From Bacteroidales bacterium UBA5266 (GTDB lineage: Bacteria > Bacteroidota > Bacteroidia > Bacteroidales > WCHB1-69): a DNA stretch of 12,610 nucleotides. Position 1 is the stretch's first letter, and every line of letters begins with the position of its first letter. This document shows, piece by piece, positions 4,393 to 12,610 of the stretch. Below the pieces are notes generated by a model that was not told the DNA's origin, did no database searches, and saw only the letters and a list, made by a program, of their open reading frames with translations. The stretch lies in NCBI GenBank assembly GCA_002411545.1, contig DHTG01000093.1:50401-63010 (forward strand), given 5' to 3'. A program made the position numbers and the translations under genes.

Positions 4393-4404
4393 AAAATAAA
4401 GTTC

Positions 4405-4489
4405 GCGACTCGCGGATTAAAACTGAGGACTGACTCCTGTTCTGTAACTTGCGACTTGAGACTTTTTCTGAGAACTGAGAACTGAGAAC
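4405..4489. repeat. 7-nt periodic array between the VanZ gene and valS
   Basis: The gap can be read as about twelve 7-nt units. They include AAAACTG (4419), AGGACTG (4426), ACTCCTG (4433), ACTTGCG (4447), ACTTGAG (4454) and ACTTTTT (4461). It ends in three perfect tandem copies of TGAGAAC (4469-4475, 4476-4482, 4483-4489). It shares a 15-mer with the array at 2650-2741 and the TGANAAC unit with both other arrays. It ends about 20 nt before the valS promoter element. Confidence 0.7.
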
Positions 4490-4511
4490 TGATTTTATTC
4501 GTTTTTTTTTG

Positions 4512-7216: not shown

Positions 7217-8890
7217 ATGAACAAAGATACCTATCAACTTTTTGGTGGAAAAATGTTTCGACAGCCTTTGTTGCATATACAAGCCCTGAAAAGCATAGAA
7301 TTAAAAGAGGCTTTTGAAGCGGTAGAGGGGTATGCCCGTAGGCATTATGTGTTGGGGTATGTGAGTTATCAAGCCAAAGATGTGTTTTTAGGAAAAACAT
7401 TCGAAAGTGAAACCCCTTTGCTTTATTTTGAAGTCTTTGATAGGTGCTATGATTATCAAGCTCACCCATTTCGGCAATCATTATGTTTATTTCCACAGCC
7501 TCAAGTAGATTATCCCCAATATGACAAAGCCATTGCAGCTATAAAAGACGAAATAGCATGCGGTAACACCTACGAACTCAATTATACCTATGCTTGTAAA
7601 CTCCCTTATAAAGGAGATGTGTATGCTCTTTTTGATAGCTTGAGTGCACAACAACAAACACCCTATCAAGCATTGATACAAAATGCTTATGAGGAGGTGC
7701 TTTCTTTTTCTCCGGAATTGTTTTTCAGTTTGGAGGGGAATCGCATACGAACCAAACCCATGAAAGGGACCATCGCACGCAAAACGAATGAAAGAGAAGA
7801 TTATCGACAGCGGGAGATCCTAAAGAATGATACTAAGAACCGCGCCGAAAATGTAATGATAGTCGATTTGCTCCGCAACGACCTAAGTAAAATAGCTCAG
7901 ACCGGCAGTGTTAAAGTAAACAAATTATTTGAGATAGAGACCTATCAAACATTGCATCAGATGATATCGGAAGTAGAGGCAAGCTTGCACCCGGATGTAA
8001 GCCTTTACGATATTTTCCAAGCGATATTTCCTTGCGGTTCGGTTACCGGTGCACCTAAGATCAAAACTATGGAACTTATTGACAGAATTGAAAAACAGCC
8101 ACGGGATATATATTGCGGAGCCATTGGCTTGCTTTCGCCCGAAGCCTGTGTTTTCAGTGTTCCCATTCGCATCTTACAGCGCAAAAAAGGCGAAAAGGAC
8201 TTTCGCTATCAAGTAGGAGGGGCTGTAGTGTGGGATTCTCGTCCGGAAGAAGAATGGGAGGAAACCCGCATTAAAAGTCTTTTTCTTACACGCAACAATC
8301 CGGAATTCAGTCTAATAGAAACCATAAAAGTAGAAAAGTTTTCTATGCTGTTTTGGGAGGCACACTTGCAACGCATGAAACTATCGGCACATGCATTGGG
8401 CTTTTATTTTAATCCCGAATTGGACAAGCTGCAAGCTACACAAAACGGTATCATGCGTATTGTTTTGGCAAAAGATGGAAATTATACAATTGACTATGCT
8501 GCTTTTGAAGAATCAACTTGCGATAAGGTTTCTCTCGCTTGCCGGGGGGTGGATAGTACGCATCCCTTGTTATACCATAAAACTACCTATCGTCCCCATT
8601 ATGAAGAAAGCATGCTGAAGATACGAAGGGGAGAAATCTACGATGAGTTGTATTACAATGAAAAAGACGAACTGACTGAAGGAGCACGTTCGAATATTAT
8701 ATTGAAAATAGAGGGGCAGTATGTAACACCTAAAGTAGAAAGCGGTTTGTTGAACGGTATTTACCGACAAAAACTCCTGGAACAAAAATTTTGTGTGGAA
8801 AAGACATTGTATGTTTCCGATTTATATAAGGCGACACACATCTTTTGTGTAAATGCTGTCAGGGGAATAAAAAAAGTAAGATTACTATGA
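7217..8890 (+). CDS. pabB: Bifunctional aminodeoxychorismate synthase component I / 4-amino-4-deoxychorismate lyase (PabB-PabC fusion)
   Basis: A 557-residue fusion of two folate-pathway enzymes. Residues up to about 345 are a chorismate-utilising domain. It has KPMKGTIAR with Lys183, the PabB-type nucleophile position (TrpE lacks this Lys), plus ENVMIVDLLRNDL, FPCGSVTGAPK and VVWDSRPEEEWEET. Residues about 350-557 are a class IV PLP aminotransferase-fold domain with Lys455 in YHKTTYR as the Schiff-base lysine, then ELTEGARSNI and SGLLNGIYRQKLLE, as in PabC. The first half aminates chorismate using ammonia from PabA; the second eliminates pyruvate to give p-aminobenzoate. PabB-PabC fusions are known in several bacterial groups. 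The stop overlaps the pabA start by ATGA, so the two subunits are translationally coupled. Both active-site lysines are present, so both activities look intact. Confidence 0.93.
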   Translation: MNKDTYQLFGGKMFRQPLLHIQALKSIELKEAFEAVEGYARRHYVLGYVSYQAKDVFLGKTFESETPLLYFEVFDRCYDYQAHPFRQSLCLFPQPQVDYPQYDKAIAAIKDEIACGNTYELNYTYACKLPYKGDVYALFDSLSAQQQTPYQALIQNAYEEVLSFSPELFFSLEGNRIRTKPMKGTIARKTNEREDYRQREILKNDTKNRAENVMIVDLLRNDLSKIAQTGSVKVNKLFEIETYQTLHQMISEVEASLHPDVSLYDIFQAIFPCGSVTGAPKIKTMELIDRIEKQPRDIYCGAIGLLSPEACVFSVPIRILQRKKGEKDFRYQVGGAVVWDSRPEEEWEETRIKSLFLTRNNPEFSLIETIKVEKFSMLFWEAHLQRMKLSAHALGFYFNPELDKLQATQNGIMRIVLAKDGNYTIDYAAFEESTCDKVSLACRGVDSTHPLLYHKTTYRPHYEESMLKIRRGEIYDELYYNEKDELTEGARSNIILKIEGQYVTPKVESGLLNGIYRQKLLEQKFCVEKTLYVSDLYKATHIFCVNAVRGIKKVRLL

Positions 8891-9447
8891 TTTTGATTGA
8901 TAATTACGATTCCTTTACGTATAATATCGTTCACTATTTCAAAGAAATGGGAGTTAACCCACGTGTGTTTACCCGCAATGAAATCAATGTAAAAGCATTT
9001 GCCGATATAGACTTCGATCGAATTGTTCTTTCCCCCGGTCCCGGGCATCCTATAGAGGCGGATTTGTGTTTGGATTTAATACATCGCTATCACCCAACGA
9101 AAAAGATACTCGGTATTTGTTTAGGTCATCAGTGCATAGCTCACGCTTTTGGGGCAAGCATAGGGAAAGATCAATGTCCTACCCATGGCAAGACCTCGGC
9201 TGTATATCATACAGGAACTTCTCTTTTTAAAGGGATACCTCAAGGATTTTCGGCCTGTCGTTATCATTCCTTGATTGTGGATAGGCATACACTTCATCCT
9301 CCCTTGGAAATCACAGCCCAAACCCAAACGGGCATAGTGATGGGTATTCAACACCGTTATTATCCGATTTTCGGTTTGCAATTTCATCCTGAGGCCATTT
9401 TAACGGAATATGGAAAAGTCTTGTTGAGAAATTTTTTAGATTTTTAA
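8887..9447 (+). CDS. pabA: Aminodeoxychorismate synthase component II (glutamine amidotransferase)
   Basis: A 186-residue class I glutamine amidotransferase that hydrolyses glutamine and passes ammonia to the PabB domain encoded just upstream. The catalytic triad is visible: Cys78 in GICLGHQC, His167 and Glu169 in FHPEA. LSPGPGHP (48-55) and the N-terminal ILIDNYDSFTYN are typical of PabA/TrpG. The true start is ATG 8887, overlapping the pabB stop as ATGA; an upstream in-frame ATG at 8845 would add 14 atypical residues inside the previous gene. The TrpG family is nearly identical, but the partner being a PabB-PabC fusion and the absence of other trp genes here favour PabA. It may serve both pathways. 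The gene ends 22 nt from the convergent peptidase gene. Confidence 0.92.
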   Translation: MILIDNYDSFTYNIVHYFKEMGVNPRVFTRNEINVKAFADIDFDRIVLSPGPGHPIEADLCLDLIHRYHPTKKILGICLGHQCIAHAFGASIGKDQCPTHGKTSAVYHTGTSLFKGIPQGFSACRYHSLIVDRHTLHPPLEITAQTQTGIVMGIQHRYYPIFGLQFHPEAILTEYGKVLLRNFLDF

Positions 9448-9469
9448 GTCTGGCAGCCAATGGCTATGC

Positions 9470-10936
9470 TCAAAAGACATAGGCCAATTGCAGAAAAAAT
9501 GCATTGTTTTTAATGCTTTTGTCGTGATGGAAGAGAGGGTAGAGATCGAAACGGAAGATACTTTCGATGTTCACAGGGGCAATGTGTAAACCCAAGCTGT
9601 ATTGCAGACCGTAACGATGCGGGTAGATATCTTGCACTAAAGACAGCTTTTGATTCCTTATTTTGGCGGAAAAGACATAACTGTAATAGCCGCCCAGACC
9701 GACATAAGCATATATAGATTCGTCGAAGGTAGTGCGAAGCAACAGGCTAAGAGGAAAGTACAAGGATTGTAAATGCAGTTTTTCAATGTGGGATGTATAG
9801 CTTGATGTGCTGGGTTGGTAAAAGTTTTCATAGGTATAGCTACATTCGGGACGTATTGATAAATAGGAGTTGATGCGGATTTGCAGCAACAGCCCTCCTT
9901 TGTAAGCCCAGCCCGAACGTCCTTTGGCAAAAGCTCCTTGGGTATAGCGCAAATGGCTCATGCCGAAGGCCGATAATAGCCCGAAGGCTACGACTTTATC
10001 TTTGGGGTGGATGGCATTTCTTCGGTGTGAATAGCTCAAGGATTCATTTTGTGACATGCGTAAGGTGAAGCTGTGCATAAAGTCGGTGATGATGCTTAGT
10101 CCTTCATAATCGATTTCATCGGCATCGTCTTGTGGTTTATGGTAGGGAGATAGCATACCGGTGGTAATATGAAAAGCCGGAATGTTTTCCATGGCAAAAT
10201 AGCGGGTATCGGTGGCGGCGAAGAGGGTCTTTTCGAAATTTTGCATGCGAAGGTTCAAAGGAGCAGTAAAGGCGATGTCCTGGATGTTTGTTTTGCCGTC
10301 TTTTAAAGTGGCTACACCTTTGATAAATAGCTTGTTGCTTTTTTTGTAATAGCCAACCATATCCATGCTGACCATGAGTTTAATATGTTGCAAGGGAAGT
10401 TGTGAAACCAAAAATTTAGATCCCAGCAGTCCTCTTTCTTCGGCATCGAAGGCCACGAGCATGACGCTACGTTTCAGTTGATGTTCGTTGGCTTTGAGCA
10501 GGCGTGCCAGTTCAATCAAGGCGGCAATACCCGAAGCATTGTCATCAGCGCCGTTATAAACCTCAATTGCATTCTCTTTGATGCGATATCCTATATGGTC
10601 GTAATGAGCGCCTATAATGATGTATTCCTGTTTTAATAGGGAATCTTTTCCTTCGATGATACCAATTACATTTTGACATTTGATGTTTTGATTGATGAGG
10701 AAGTATTGAAAATAGGAATCCTGCTCATAAGAAATTAAGCCAATTTCTTTGAAATACTGAGCAATATAAATTGCCGACAATAAACCTTCTTGGCTGCCTG
10801 CCGAACGTCCACGCATGGAATCGGAGGCAAGGGTATAGACATGTTGGCGCAGTAATTGTGGGTCGCTCGTTTGAGTATAGGCGGTAAGGATGAGCGAGAA
10901 CCCTAGAAAAGTACATAAAAAAACCGATTTTTTCAT
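9470..10936 (-). CDS. Secreted M28-family zinc metallopeptidase with C-terminal outer-membrane beta-barrel-like domain
   Basis: A 488-residue protein beginning with a signal peptide (MKKSVF, hydrophobic to about residue 20). Residues about 25-295 are an M28 (aminopeptidase Y/S-like) domain with all expected di-zinc residues: His111 in GAHYDHIG, Asp131 in GADDNASG, Glu166 (base) and Glu167 (ligand) in AEERGLLGS, Asp192 in SMDMVGY, and His266 in YHKPQDDADEID. Residues about 315-488 lack the peptidase fold. They alternate polar and hydrophobic residues in strand-like stretches (GLLLQIRINSYLSIRPECSY, YAYVGLGGYYSYVF, YGLQYSLGLHIAP) and end in Phe, like a PorT-type outer-membrane barrel. I infer an outer-membrane-tethered aminopeptidase facing periplasm or surface. 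It starts 17 nt downstream of a tRNA-Leu on the same strand, with no promoter visible between, so read-through from the tRNA unit is likely. Substrate unknown. Confidence 0.85.
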   Translation of the reverse strand: MKKSVFLCTFLGFSLILTAYTQTSDPQLLRQHVYTLASDSMRGRSAGSQEGLLSAIYIAQYFKEIGLISYEQDSYFQYFLINQNIKCQNVIGIIEGKDSLLKQEYIIIGAHYDHIGYRIKENAIEVYNGADDNASGIAALIELARLLKANEHQLKRSVMLVAFDAEERGLLGSKFLVSQLPLQHIKLMVSMDMVGYYKKSNKLFIKGVATLKDGKTNIQDIAFTAPLNLRMQNFEKTLFAATDTRYFAMENIPAFHITTGMLSPYHKPQDDADEIDYEGLSIITDFMHSFTLRMSQNESLSYSHRRNAIHPKDKVVAFGLLSAFGMSHLRYTQGAFAKGRSGWAYKGGLLLQIRINSYLSIRPECSYTYENFYQPSTSSYTSHIEKLHLQSLYFPLSLLLRTTFDESIYAYVGLGGYYSYVFSAKIRNQKLSLVQDIYPHRYGLQYSLGLHIAPVNIESIFRFDLYPLFHHDKSIKNNAFFLQLAYVF

Positions 10937-10953
10937 AGATAAACTTAAAAAAG

Positions 10954-11037
10954 TGCCCCGAACAAGATTTGAACTTGCACAACCTTGCGATTACTACACC
11001 CTGAATGTAGCGCGTCTACCAATTCCGCCATCGGGGC
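10954..11037 (-). tRNA. tRNA-Leu (anticodon CAG)
   Basis: An 84-nt cloverleaf on the minus strand. The acceptor stem GCCCCGA pairs fully with TCGGGGC, followed by discriminator A; CCA is not encoded. The D arm contains GGCGGAATTGGTAGACGC, the anticodon stem CTACA/TGTAG encloses loop TTCAGGG with anticodon CAG (complement of 11001-11003), the long variable arm (AATC-GCAA-GGTT) is class II as for Leu, and the T arm reads GCAAG-TTCAAAT-CTTGT. It is the second of two tandem tRNA-Leu genes and lies 17 nt before the peptidase start codon. Confidence 0.95.
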
Positions 11038-11065
11038 ATTTCGTAAAAATTCATGTGGTATGTGG

Positions 11066-11149
11066 TGTCCGGAACAAGACTTGAACTTGCACACCCTTTC
11101 GAGCTCTAGTACCTGAAACTAGCGTGTCTACCAATTCCACCATCCGGGC
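11066..11149 (-). tRNA. tRNA-Leu (anticodon CAG) with an acceptor-stem mismatch
   Basis: An 84-nt class II tRNA with anticodon CAG (complement of 11113-11115) in loop TTCAGGT closed by CTAGT/ACTAG, variable arm GCTC-GAAA-GGGT and T arm GCAAG-TTCAAGT-CTTGT; discriminator A, no encoded CCA. The 5' acceptor strand is GCCCGGA but the 3' strand is TCCGGAC, so position 2 (C) faces position 71 (A): one mismatch, the others pair. This may be a mutation, a sequencing error or a hybrid of two tRNA-Leu genes, since its 5' side adjoins the seam to spirochaete-like DNA. Same anticodon as the neighbouring tRNA, 28 nt away. Confidence 0.9.
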
Positions 11150-11215
11150 AATACTCTTAAATGAAGTATGTTGTTACTATATAAAATCTTAGCCGTCATG
11201 TCAAGCAGTGCCGGA
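11150..11215. other. Probable seam between Bacteroidota-like and spirochaete-like DNA
   Basis: Everything to the left has Bacteroidota gene content and signals; the two genes to the right resemble Treponema pseudouridine synthases. The 66 nt between hold a sigma70-type promoter and no repeat, insertion sequence or integrase. The break could lie here or inside the adjacent tRNA-Leu, whose conserved sequence suits both recombination and misassembly. Taxonomic assignment is from protein character only. Confidence 0.45.
11176..11204 (-). promoter_or_regulatory. Sigma70-type promoter reading into the tRNA-Leu pair
   Basis: On the minus strand TTGACA (complement of 11199-11204) is followed after exactly 17 nt by TATAGT (complement of 11176-11181). 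That places transcription start near 11169, about 20 nt before the first tRNA-Leu. This is a near-perfect classical sigma70 promoter, unlike the TAnnTTTG elements used by Bacteroidota and seen before valS. It lies 12 nt from the stop of the downstream pseudouridine synthase gene and so may belong to the spirochaete-like side of the seam. Confidence 0.6.
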
Positions 11216-11971
11216 TCAGACTGTAAAAGTAATTTTTTTGCCGGTAACCGGATGAAAAAAACTTATTTTAAATGCTTCGAAATTAAAAAGAACTGTCTCT
11301 TCCGAAGGATCATAAAGAGGATCTCCTGCAATAGGAAAACCTATCCAAGCCAAATGAGCCCTGATTTGATGGCGGTACCCTTCCGCTATTTCACATTCAA
11401 CCGGTATTATTTTTTCAGCGGATGCATTTTTCAAAAGCGTTATTTTTGTTGTGTACAATTTTTTACCGCTTTTTTTCAATGCAGATTTTCCTGAAGAACC
11501 GGTTACCGGGCGAACTTGAGCGTTTTTTAATCCGAACGGTCTGAATGCTGAGGTCACTGTAATGCATCTGTTTTTCAAGAGATCCTGATAAAATCCTTGC
11601 TGCGGCGGAAAAGCGTCCAAAACAACGGGTGTATCGGCTTTGTTTCTGCACAAAGCCTTATACGTTTTTATAAACTTATGCTGCTTTTGTTCCTGCAAAA
11701 GAGTTTCATAAGCATTCTGAGAGGATGCAATGACTAAAAGTCCCCTTGTATCTGTATCAATCCGGTGTAAAAGACCATATTCGCATTTTTTTTTGCCGCT
11801 GACAGTACGAATTTGGGGAAACAGCCGGGCAGCCTGAAAAACAGCATTATTTTGTTCACCGTCTTTAAGCGGAGCTGACGGAAGCCCTGACGGTTTATAA
11901 ATGACAATAAAAGGATTATCCTTTGAAGGTTCCTGAATAATTTTAATTTGCAAATCTTCTGTTCCGCTCAT
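11216..11971 (-). CDS. RluA-family RNA pseudouridine synthase
   Basis: A 251-residue enzyme that isomerises uridine to pseudouridine in rRNA or tRNA. The catalytic motif is HRIDTDTRGLL (69-79), with Asp72 as nucleophile. The N-terminal VIYKPSGLPSAP and the C-terminal EGYRHQIRAHLAWIGFPIAGDPLYD are the flanking family motifs. It has no S4 domain, as in the short RluA-like enzymes. ATG at 11971 overlaps the TGA of the upstream synthase as ATGA, so the pair is translationally coupled. The target base cannot be told from sequence. The protein reads most like spirochaete (Treponema) homologues, an impression from memory and not a search. Adjacent tandem RluA-family paralogues suggest distinct targets. 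Complete at both ends. Confidence 0.85.
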   Translation of the reverse strand: MSGTEDLQIKIIQEPSKDNPFIVIYKPSGLPSAPLKDGEQNNAVFQAARLFPQIRTVSGKKKCEYGLLHRIDTDTRGLLVIASSQNAYETLLQEQKQHKFIKTYKALCRNKADTPVVLDAFPPQQGFYQDLLKNRCITVTSAFRPFGLKNAQVRPVTGSSGKSALKKSGKKLYTTKITLLKNASAEKIIPVECEIAEGYRHQIRAHLAWIGFPIAGDPLYDPSEETVLFNFEAFKISFFHPVTGKKITFTV

Positions 11972-12610
11972 TTTGTTATAATTTCCTTCCGAAATTTTGA
12001 ATGCAGAGATGCAAGCACCTTTTTAAAACGTACAGGCACTGCTGCGTAAAACGTTGCAGCTTTTTTTTCTCCAGGAAGCCGTATTTTAAGAAACCGCGAA
12101 TGCAGCATAAGCGTTGCGTCTGGAAACAGTTCTTCTTTTTTCTGGTTATAGACAGAATCGCCCAGAATAGGACAGCCAATAAATTTAGCATGAACTCTTA
12201 TTTGATGGGTTCTACCTGTTTTAAGCCTGAAGCGCATTAGCGAATAATTTCCATAACAGGCAATGCAGTGGTAAATAGTCTTTGCATATTTTCCTTCAAC
12301 AGTGTTTCCAACAGCTTTAAATCTTTTTCTATTTCCGGGATCCCGTATAATTTGCGTGCTGATTACGCCGCCTTTATGCGGCGGACGCCCGCTTACTATT
12401 GCTATGTATTCTTTTTGCACATGGCGTTTTTGAAACTGCTGCTGCAAAAAATCCTCAGAAAGCCGGTTCCGTGCCGTAATAATGATTCCTGAAGTTTCTT
12501 TATCAAGCCGGTGAACAATTCCCGGACGGTTTGAAACAGTATTTTTTACAGCCTTTTGATTCCAGCGGTACAGCAAGGCATTCACTAACGTACCGCTCCA
12601 GTTTCCTGCC
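11968..12610 (-). CDS. RluD-like pseudouridine synthase, 5' end beyond the window
   Basis: The reading frame runs past the window edge: upstream of GTG 12585 it continues in frame as ...GNWSGTLVNALLYRW, the conserved segment before the catalytic domain in RluC/RluD enzymes, so GTG 12585 is not the start. The catalytic motif PGIVHRLDKETSG carries the nucleophilic Asp, and KTGRTHQIRVHAKFIGCPILGDSVY closes the fold. RluD modifies helix 69 of 23S rRNA in known cases; the IRDPGNRKRF stretch is a common family element. The N-terminal S4 RNA-binding domain, if present, is outside. Stop TGA overlaps the next gene. Target assignment to RluD is tentative; membership of the RluA superfamily is secure. 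Confidence 0.87.
   Translation of the reverse strand, partial: AGNWSGTLVNALLYRWNQKAVKNTVSNRPGIVHRLDKETSGIIITARNRLSEDFLQQQFQKRHVQKEYIAIVSGRPPHKGGVISTQIIRDPGNRKRFKAVGNTVEGKYAKTIYHCIACYGNYSLMRFRLKTGRTHQIRVHAKFIGCPILGDSVYNQKKEELFPDATLMLHSRFLKIRLPGEKKAATFYAAVPVRFKKVLASLHSKFRKEIITK

Follow-up and report, generated by a model that had tools for sequence, protein, structure and literature searches.

Can the end of a contig change from one bacterial phylum to another inside a tRNA gene because DNA was exchanged in the cell, or because reads from two organisms were joined during assembly? This question is raised by contig C34 (DHTG01000093.1) of the genome of Bacteroidales bacterium UBA5266 (GCA_002411545.1; G000 below). 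The contig has 63,010 bases, and the window, that is, the whole stretch of 12,610 nucleotides analysed here, comprises its bases 50,401-63,010. The last base of the window is also the last base of C34; the foreign part thus amounts to some 1.5 kb at the tail of this 63-kb contig. The genome measures 1.78 Mb in 107 contigs and is rated 71.87% complete, with a contamination of 0.1%.

The original prediction was made from the letters of the window. It placed a taxonomic seam at about 11,150, possibly inside a hybrid tRNA-Leu gene, and preferred an assembly chimera to a true recombination as its cause. The features on which the analysis turns are the following (all on the minus strand).

9,470-10,936 (-): M28-type peptidase with a C-terminal beta-barrel-like domain (Pfam PF04389 and PF13568), the native left neighbour
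10,953-11,037 (-): native Bacteroidota tRNA-Leu(CAG), intact (ARAGORN), the partner of tRNA-Leu(GAG) in genomes G001-G003
11,063-11,149 (-): hybrid tRNA-Leu, called with anticodon CAG by ARAGORN and also found by Rfam RF00005
11,063-11,068 (-): 3' end of a native Bacteroidota tRNA-Leu(GAG), holding A71, by exact matches to G001-G003
11,069-11,092 (-): splice interval of 24 nt, which takes in the T-arm and some of the 3' acceptor strand, by exact matches
11,093-11,149 (-): 5' part of the tRNA-Leu, 57 nt from the first acceptor strand to the variable arm and including the anticodon CAG, Treponema-derived, by exact match to T. parvum
11,150-11,215 (-): Treponema intergenic region with TTGACA-N17-TATAGT, between the end of the RluA gene and the tRNA
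11,216-11,971 (-): RluA-family pseudouridine synthase of 251 aa, Treponema (Pfam PF00849)
11,968-12,609 (-): second pseudouridine synthase, RluA/RluD type, Treponema, its 5' end lost at the contig end

Gene order on the two sides

Two tRNA-Leu genes lie side by side in the window, at 10,953-11,037 and 11,063-11,149. ARAGORN reads the anticodon CAG in both, and they score 51.8 and 46.8 bits, respectively, against Rfam RF00005. The hybrid tRNA-Leu suspected at the border is one of a pair: its hybrid nature is confirmed, while the native tRNA-Leu(CAG) is the gene at 10,953-11,037 and the anticodon of the hybrid is that of Treponema.

The order of genes to the left can be compared with that in related genomes. 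A DNA search of 41 genomes (G000 and 40 relatives) found matches of 80-84% in G001, G002, and G003, which take in both tRNA genes and break off where the second one begins (its 5' end), near window position 11,147-11,150. In these three genomes, all from the same genus, the order is purA (divergent), tRNA-Leu(GAG), tRNA-Leu(CAG), and M28 peptidase, the last being cut by a contig end in G003. A fourth genome of the genus, G004, has purA, a single tRNA-Leu(GAG), and the M28 peptidase. This comparison covers four of the five genomes of the genus, as G005 gave no purA match. Among the family loci fetched from outside the genus, purA does not stand beside tRNA-Leu(GAG), so the comparison of native order rests on these four genomes.

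Judging from this order, the gene that belongs at the site of the hybrid is a tRNA-Leu(GAG), not a tRNA-Leu(CAG). The locus in G001-G003 agrees with the window in the order and kind of everything left of 11,069. It differs in that, where the window has its Treponema part, it carries the anticodon GAG, the acceptor strand GTCCGGG, the upstream motif TAnnTTTG, and purA. The 3' part of the hybrid, which had been assigned to the Bacteroidota member, is identical to the 3' end of the tRNA-Leu(GAG) in that genus.

The names of protein relatives divide in the same way. Only two of the 120 listed relatives of the M28 peptidase name an organism, and these are Dysgonamonadaceae and Bacteroidales. For each of the two synthases, 120 relatives were listed; most of these rows are nameless, among them two near-identical clusters (98-99%), and every organism that appears in the names shown is Treponema or Spirochaetaceae. 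A taxonomic seam, as originally proposed, is thus present. The second synthase scores 168 bits against TIGR00005, where the curated cut-off is 192.7, because the contig end truncates the protein.

A scan of genome contigs with the 251-aa protein gave at least 592 pattern matches, at least 526 of which were confirmed, and the best 80 loci were kept (L018-L097). The titles of all 80 name Treponema, Spirochaetaceae, Spirochaetales, Spirochaetia, or Spirochaetes, and 39 of the loci contain a tRNA-Leu(CAG). In 35 of the 80, this tRNA is at most 134 bases away from the RluA stop codon or overlaps the end of the RluA frame, and in the remaining four it is 1.1-2.4 kb off. Among the 35, 8 have the tRNA and the gene in the same direction, which is the arrangement of the window, and 27 have them opposed. 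Many of the opposed loci have a tRNA-Leu(CAG) that overlaps the end of the RluA frame by about 50 bases. The neighbourhood of tRNA-Leu(CAG) and RluA-family gene is kept in Treponema despite the flipped orientation.

The closest arrangement is found in T. parvum (L018, NZ_CP054257.1), where an RluD-type gene, an RluA gene, TTGACA-N17-TATAGT, and tRNA-Leu(CAG) follow one another in one direction. This locus shares with the window the gene order, the orientation, the hexamers and spacing of the promoter, and an exact tRNA 5' part of 49 nt, as expected if the promoter and the 5' part of the tRNA are spirochaetal. In contrast to the hybrid of the window, the T. parvum tRNA is intact, GCCCGGA standing opposite TCCGGGC. 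Protein identities to T. parvum are about 49% for the RluA protein and 73% for the RluD-type protein, which indicates that the donor is another Treponema species. A search of 200 genomes of the group did not reveal the exact donor; the best DNA match there is T. parvum itself, with 67% over 809 bases.

The splice within the tRNA gene

Maximal exact matches locate the change from one organism to the other. Along the minus strand, the window matches T. parvum exactly over 49 nt, from 11,151 to 11,103, and again over 28 nt, from 11,096 to 11,069. It is identical to G001, G002, and G003 for 28-29 nt, from 11,092 or 11,093 to 11,065. The two sets of matches overlap at 11,069-11,092, a block of 24 nt common to the tRNA-Leu(CAG) of T. 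parvum and the tRNA-Leu(GAG) of G001-G003. From these matches, the splice can apparently be placed to those 24 bases, inside the tRNA gene.

The seam is accordingly not at about 11,150, since the Treponema match continues through the tRNA to 11,069. The idea of a join within conserved tRNA sequence, on the other hand, would fit the shared block. The tRNAs of T. parvum and G001-G003 have exact blocks of 24-25 nt and 23 nt in common, T. parvum being a relative of the donor and not the donor itself. A shared stretch of 24 bases would fall in the range of the shorter word lengths with which assemblers of short-read metagenomes work.

Composition had been named as a check on the seam and was compared here as 5-mers. 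The mean log-odds (Bacteroidota versus Treponema) range from +0.007 to +0.055 in seven overlapping intervals that cover 9,001-11,000. The value is -0.007 at 10,751-11,250 and lies between -0.023 and -0.068 beyond, so that the sign changes from the interval 10,501-11,000 to the interval 10,751-11,250, near the seam. This result is weak, because the differences are small and because the Treponema training loci (L142-L147) had been selected for their resemblance to the right-hand segment under test and thus include relatives of its genes, which favours such an outcome.

The acceptor stem of the hybrid also bears on the splice. Its two strands had been noticed not to match fully, and the Rfam alignment contains one non-standard pair, C2-A71. 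The A at position 71 is the Bacteroidota state (GTCCGG/CCGGAC), and the C at position 2 is that of T. parvum (GCCCGG/CCGGGC). The mismatch noticed earlier is this single pair, and it is most likely a one-base imprint of the splice. With the best offset and G-U pairs allowed, the acceptor is fully paired in 72 of 75 distinct tRNA-Leu genes compared, and the hybrid is among the three exceptions. The other two, one from L071 and one from L072, are both Treponema; because 2 of the 74 other tRNA-Leu genes thus also lack a pair, a single acceptor mismatch is weak evidence when taken alone.

Further evidence comes from the promoters. A sigma70-type promoter, foreseen in front of the tRNA, is indeed found there as TTGACA-N17-TATAGT. 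The corresponding test in Treponema used 38 of the 39 tRNA-Leu(CAG) genes; that of L024, for which the upstream sequence is missing, was dropped. Within 80 nt upstream, the loose pattern TTGnnn-N16-18-TAnnnT occurs at all 38 genes, whereas shuffling the bases leaves it at 6.8 of 38 on average, and the stricter form with TTGA occurs at 36 of the 38, compared with 2.3 in shuffles. In the 80 nt upstream of the five native Bacteroidota genes (those of G001-G004 and one on contig C41 of G000, described below), the loose pattern is absent.

Instead, these five genes have TAnnTTTG, a Bacteroidota promoter element. It reads TAATTTTG at 20 nt upstream of the gene on C41 and TACTTTTG at 20-22 nt in G001-G004. 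The motif is no proof on its own, because 4 of the 38 Treponema genes also carry it within 60 nt upstream.

A functional hybrid tRNA should have a fully paired acceptor stem and a promoter of the host's type. With C2-A71 the stem is one pair short, and the 60 nt upstream of the hybrid contain no TAnnTTTG, compared with its presence at 5 of 5 native genes. The hybrid reads CAG, and the gene at the same position in G001-G004 reads GAG. The hybrid tRNA with its C2-A71 pair is most likely found in no cell, and is then an artefact for trimming rather than a piece of biology.

The missing native half and the origin of the join

If the window lost the 5' half of its tRNA-Leu(GAG) in assembly, that half may be expected elsewhere in the same genome. 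It is found at the edge of C41, a contig of 5,868 bases, which consists of an outer stretch of 57 nt, the 5' half of a tRNA-Leu(GAG) at 58-103, and then purA. The tRNA half, together with the four bases before it, is an exact match of 50 nt to G001, and the purA gene is 86% identical to that of G001. The acceptor strand on C41 (GTCCGGG) can pair with the 3' strand in the window (TCCGGAC) at 7 of 7 positions, with one G-U pair.

From the half tRNA, its promoter, purA, and the fit of the acceptor strands, C34 and C41 look like true neighbours that were broken at the tRNA gene, and each of them looks to bear a false extension there. The native junction between the two is drawn from the relatives rather than read directly, because the edge of C41 is itself joined to the 57-nt stretch. 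Positions 1-57 of C41 (L017) fail to continue the adjoining tRNA half and do not occur elsewhere in G000. This tRNA gene thus seems to have been wrongly joined a second time, at the edge of C41. An initial idea, suggested by letters near the end, was that the 57 nt are the 3' half of a tRNA from a third organism, and ARAGORN found no tRNA in C41. The stretch is open as a frame of 19 codons, although frames so short are often open by chance.

On this evidence the seam is almost certainly an assembly chimera, in which a Bacteroidota contig and a Treponema fragment were put together through a shared stretch of tRNA-Leu. The assembler would have joined C34 (left of 11,069) to the Treponema fragment (right of 11,092) through about 24 shared bases. 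C34 would truly continue into the remaining 5' half of tRNA-Leu(GAG), the TAnnTTTG promoter of this gene, and then purA, as now seen at the edge of C41. The two sides of the seam belong to different phyla, and each retains the native order of its own group (L018 on the right, G001-G004 on the left). We infer that the join was made in software rather than in the cell; the missing 5' half and purA at the edge of C41 support the preference for a chimera in the original prediction.

A true recombination between phyla would mean that a Treponema segment crossed over inside the tRNA-Leu gene of a Bacteroidota chromosome and left a hybrid tRNA behind. The chromosome would then carry an anticodon-switched hybrid, with a Treponema 5' half, a sigma70 promoter, and the pseudouridine synthases. 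Although the shared blocks of 24-25 nt and 23 nt could serve crossing over as well as mis-assembly, such an event is very improbable. It would put a second tRNA-Leu(CAG) in the place of tRNA-Leu(GAG), and yet the native 5' half of the latter is still in the genome with purA, broken at the same gene. It would also leave the acceptor mispaired and the tRNA under a type of promoter seen at 0 of 5 native genes, and the foreign part is merely a tail at the end of a contig.

Less probable still is the view that the tRNA-Leu gene was the insertion site of a mobile element or genomic island and that part of the tRNA was restored at one of its ends. Genes for tRNAs are common integration sites, and a seam in the T-arm and acceptor part would suit such an insertion. 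Integration normally leaves the gene's own 5' half and promoter, however, and here the 5' half and promoter are the foreign ones. The genes right of the seam are of the RluA family and in Treponema order, family scans of 10 window proteins revealed no integrase, and the right part of 1.5 kb ends with the contig. This explanation was rejected on account of the foreign 5' half with its promoter and the lack of a mobility gene in the 1.5 kb.

An old and settled transfer of the synthases and the tRNA into the Bacteroidota lineage, equally far from being credible, was rejected by two surveys, even though genes of the RluA family occur in many kinds of bacteria (in 10 of 14 control genomes). When up to one mismatch is allowed, the initial 46 nt of the hybrid are present in 34 of the 196 genomes searched in the T. 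parvum group. Of the 104 genomes of the Bacteroidota family, two have them, namely G000 itself and G119, so that only 1 of 103 other family genomes has them. In G119, which has a contamination of 7%, the Treponema-like tRNA-Leu(CAG) is intact and its flanking ORFs are unlike those of the window locus (L150, on G119:C178). Both features suggest that G119:C178 is probably a misbinned Treponema contig. Bacteroidota homologues of the synthases with the same neighbours, which would have spoken for native genes, did not appear in the second survey either: of 30 tRNA-Leu loci from the family, each covering at most about 3.4 kb, only that of the window itself (L106) has an RluA gene nearby.

Consequences for contig ends and other features of the window

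As a discovery the assembly chimera has no significance, but it can serve as a caution. A foreign tail of about 1.5 kb stands in a genome rated 0.1% contaminated, and ARAGORN took the spliced tRNA for an ordinary tRNA-Leu(CAG). For tRNA genes at contig ends, a cheap test for splices is to compare the anticodon, the pairing of the acceptor, and the promoter with what relatives lead one to expect.

The part of the GUNC paper that deals with misassembly (PMC8201837) describes it as fragments of several sources wrongly put into chimeric contigs, and as relatively rare. The present case is similar in that fragments of two sources share one contig, the foreign part being a short end tail. It differs from that description in that the splice is placed to a 24-nt block in a tRNA gene and that the likely partner contig end can be named. 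Splices inside tRNA genes are not treated in the titles and abstract openings of the literature searched.

Several contigs of family genomes start in or at a match to tRNA-Leu (G011:C71:1-74, G074:C34:1-74, G083:C67:3-84, and G013:C146:3-92). Such starts are expected if conserved genes of this kind are frequent break points of assemblies.

Other features of the window lie away from the seam. The gene at 7,217-8,890 encodes a PabB-type aminodeoxychorismate synthase, and residues 366-555, the C-terminal third, match PRK07546 with 111.6 bits, the cut-off being 223. This gene is probably a fusion with the separate family PRK07546. A PabA-type gene follows directly at 8,887-9,447.

Finally, similar-looking words can be seen by eye in three intergenic regions of the window, at about 1,376-1,450, 2,645-2,710, and 4,395-4,490. 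Examples are aactgagaactgag and caagtcgcaggtctcaagtt, which may be decayed repeats or terminator-like hairpins.
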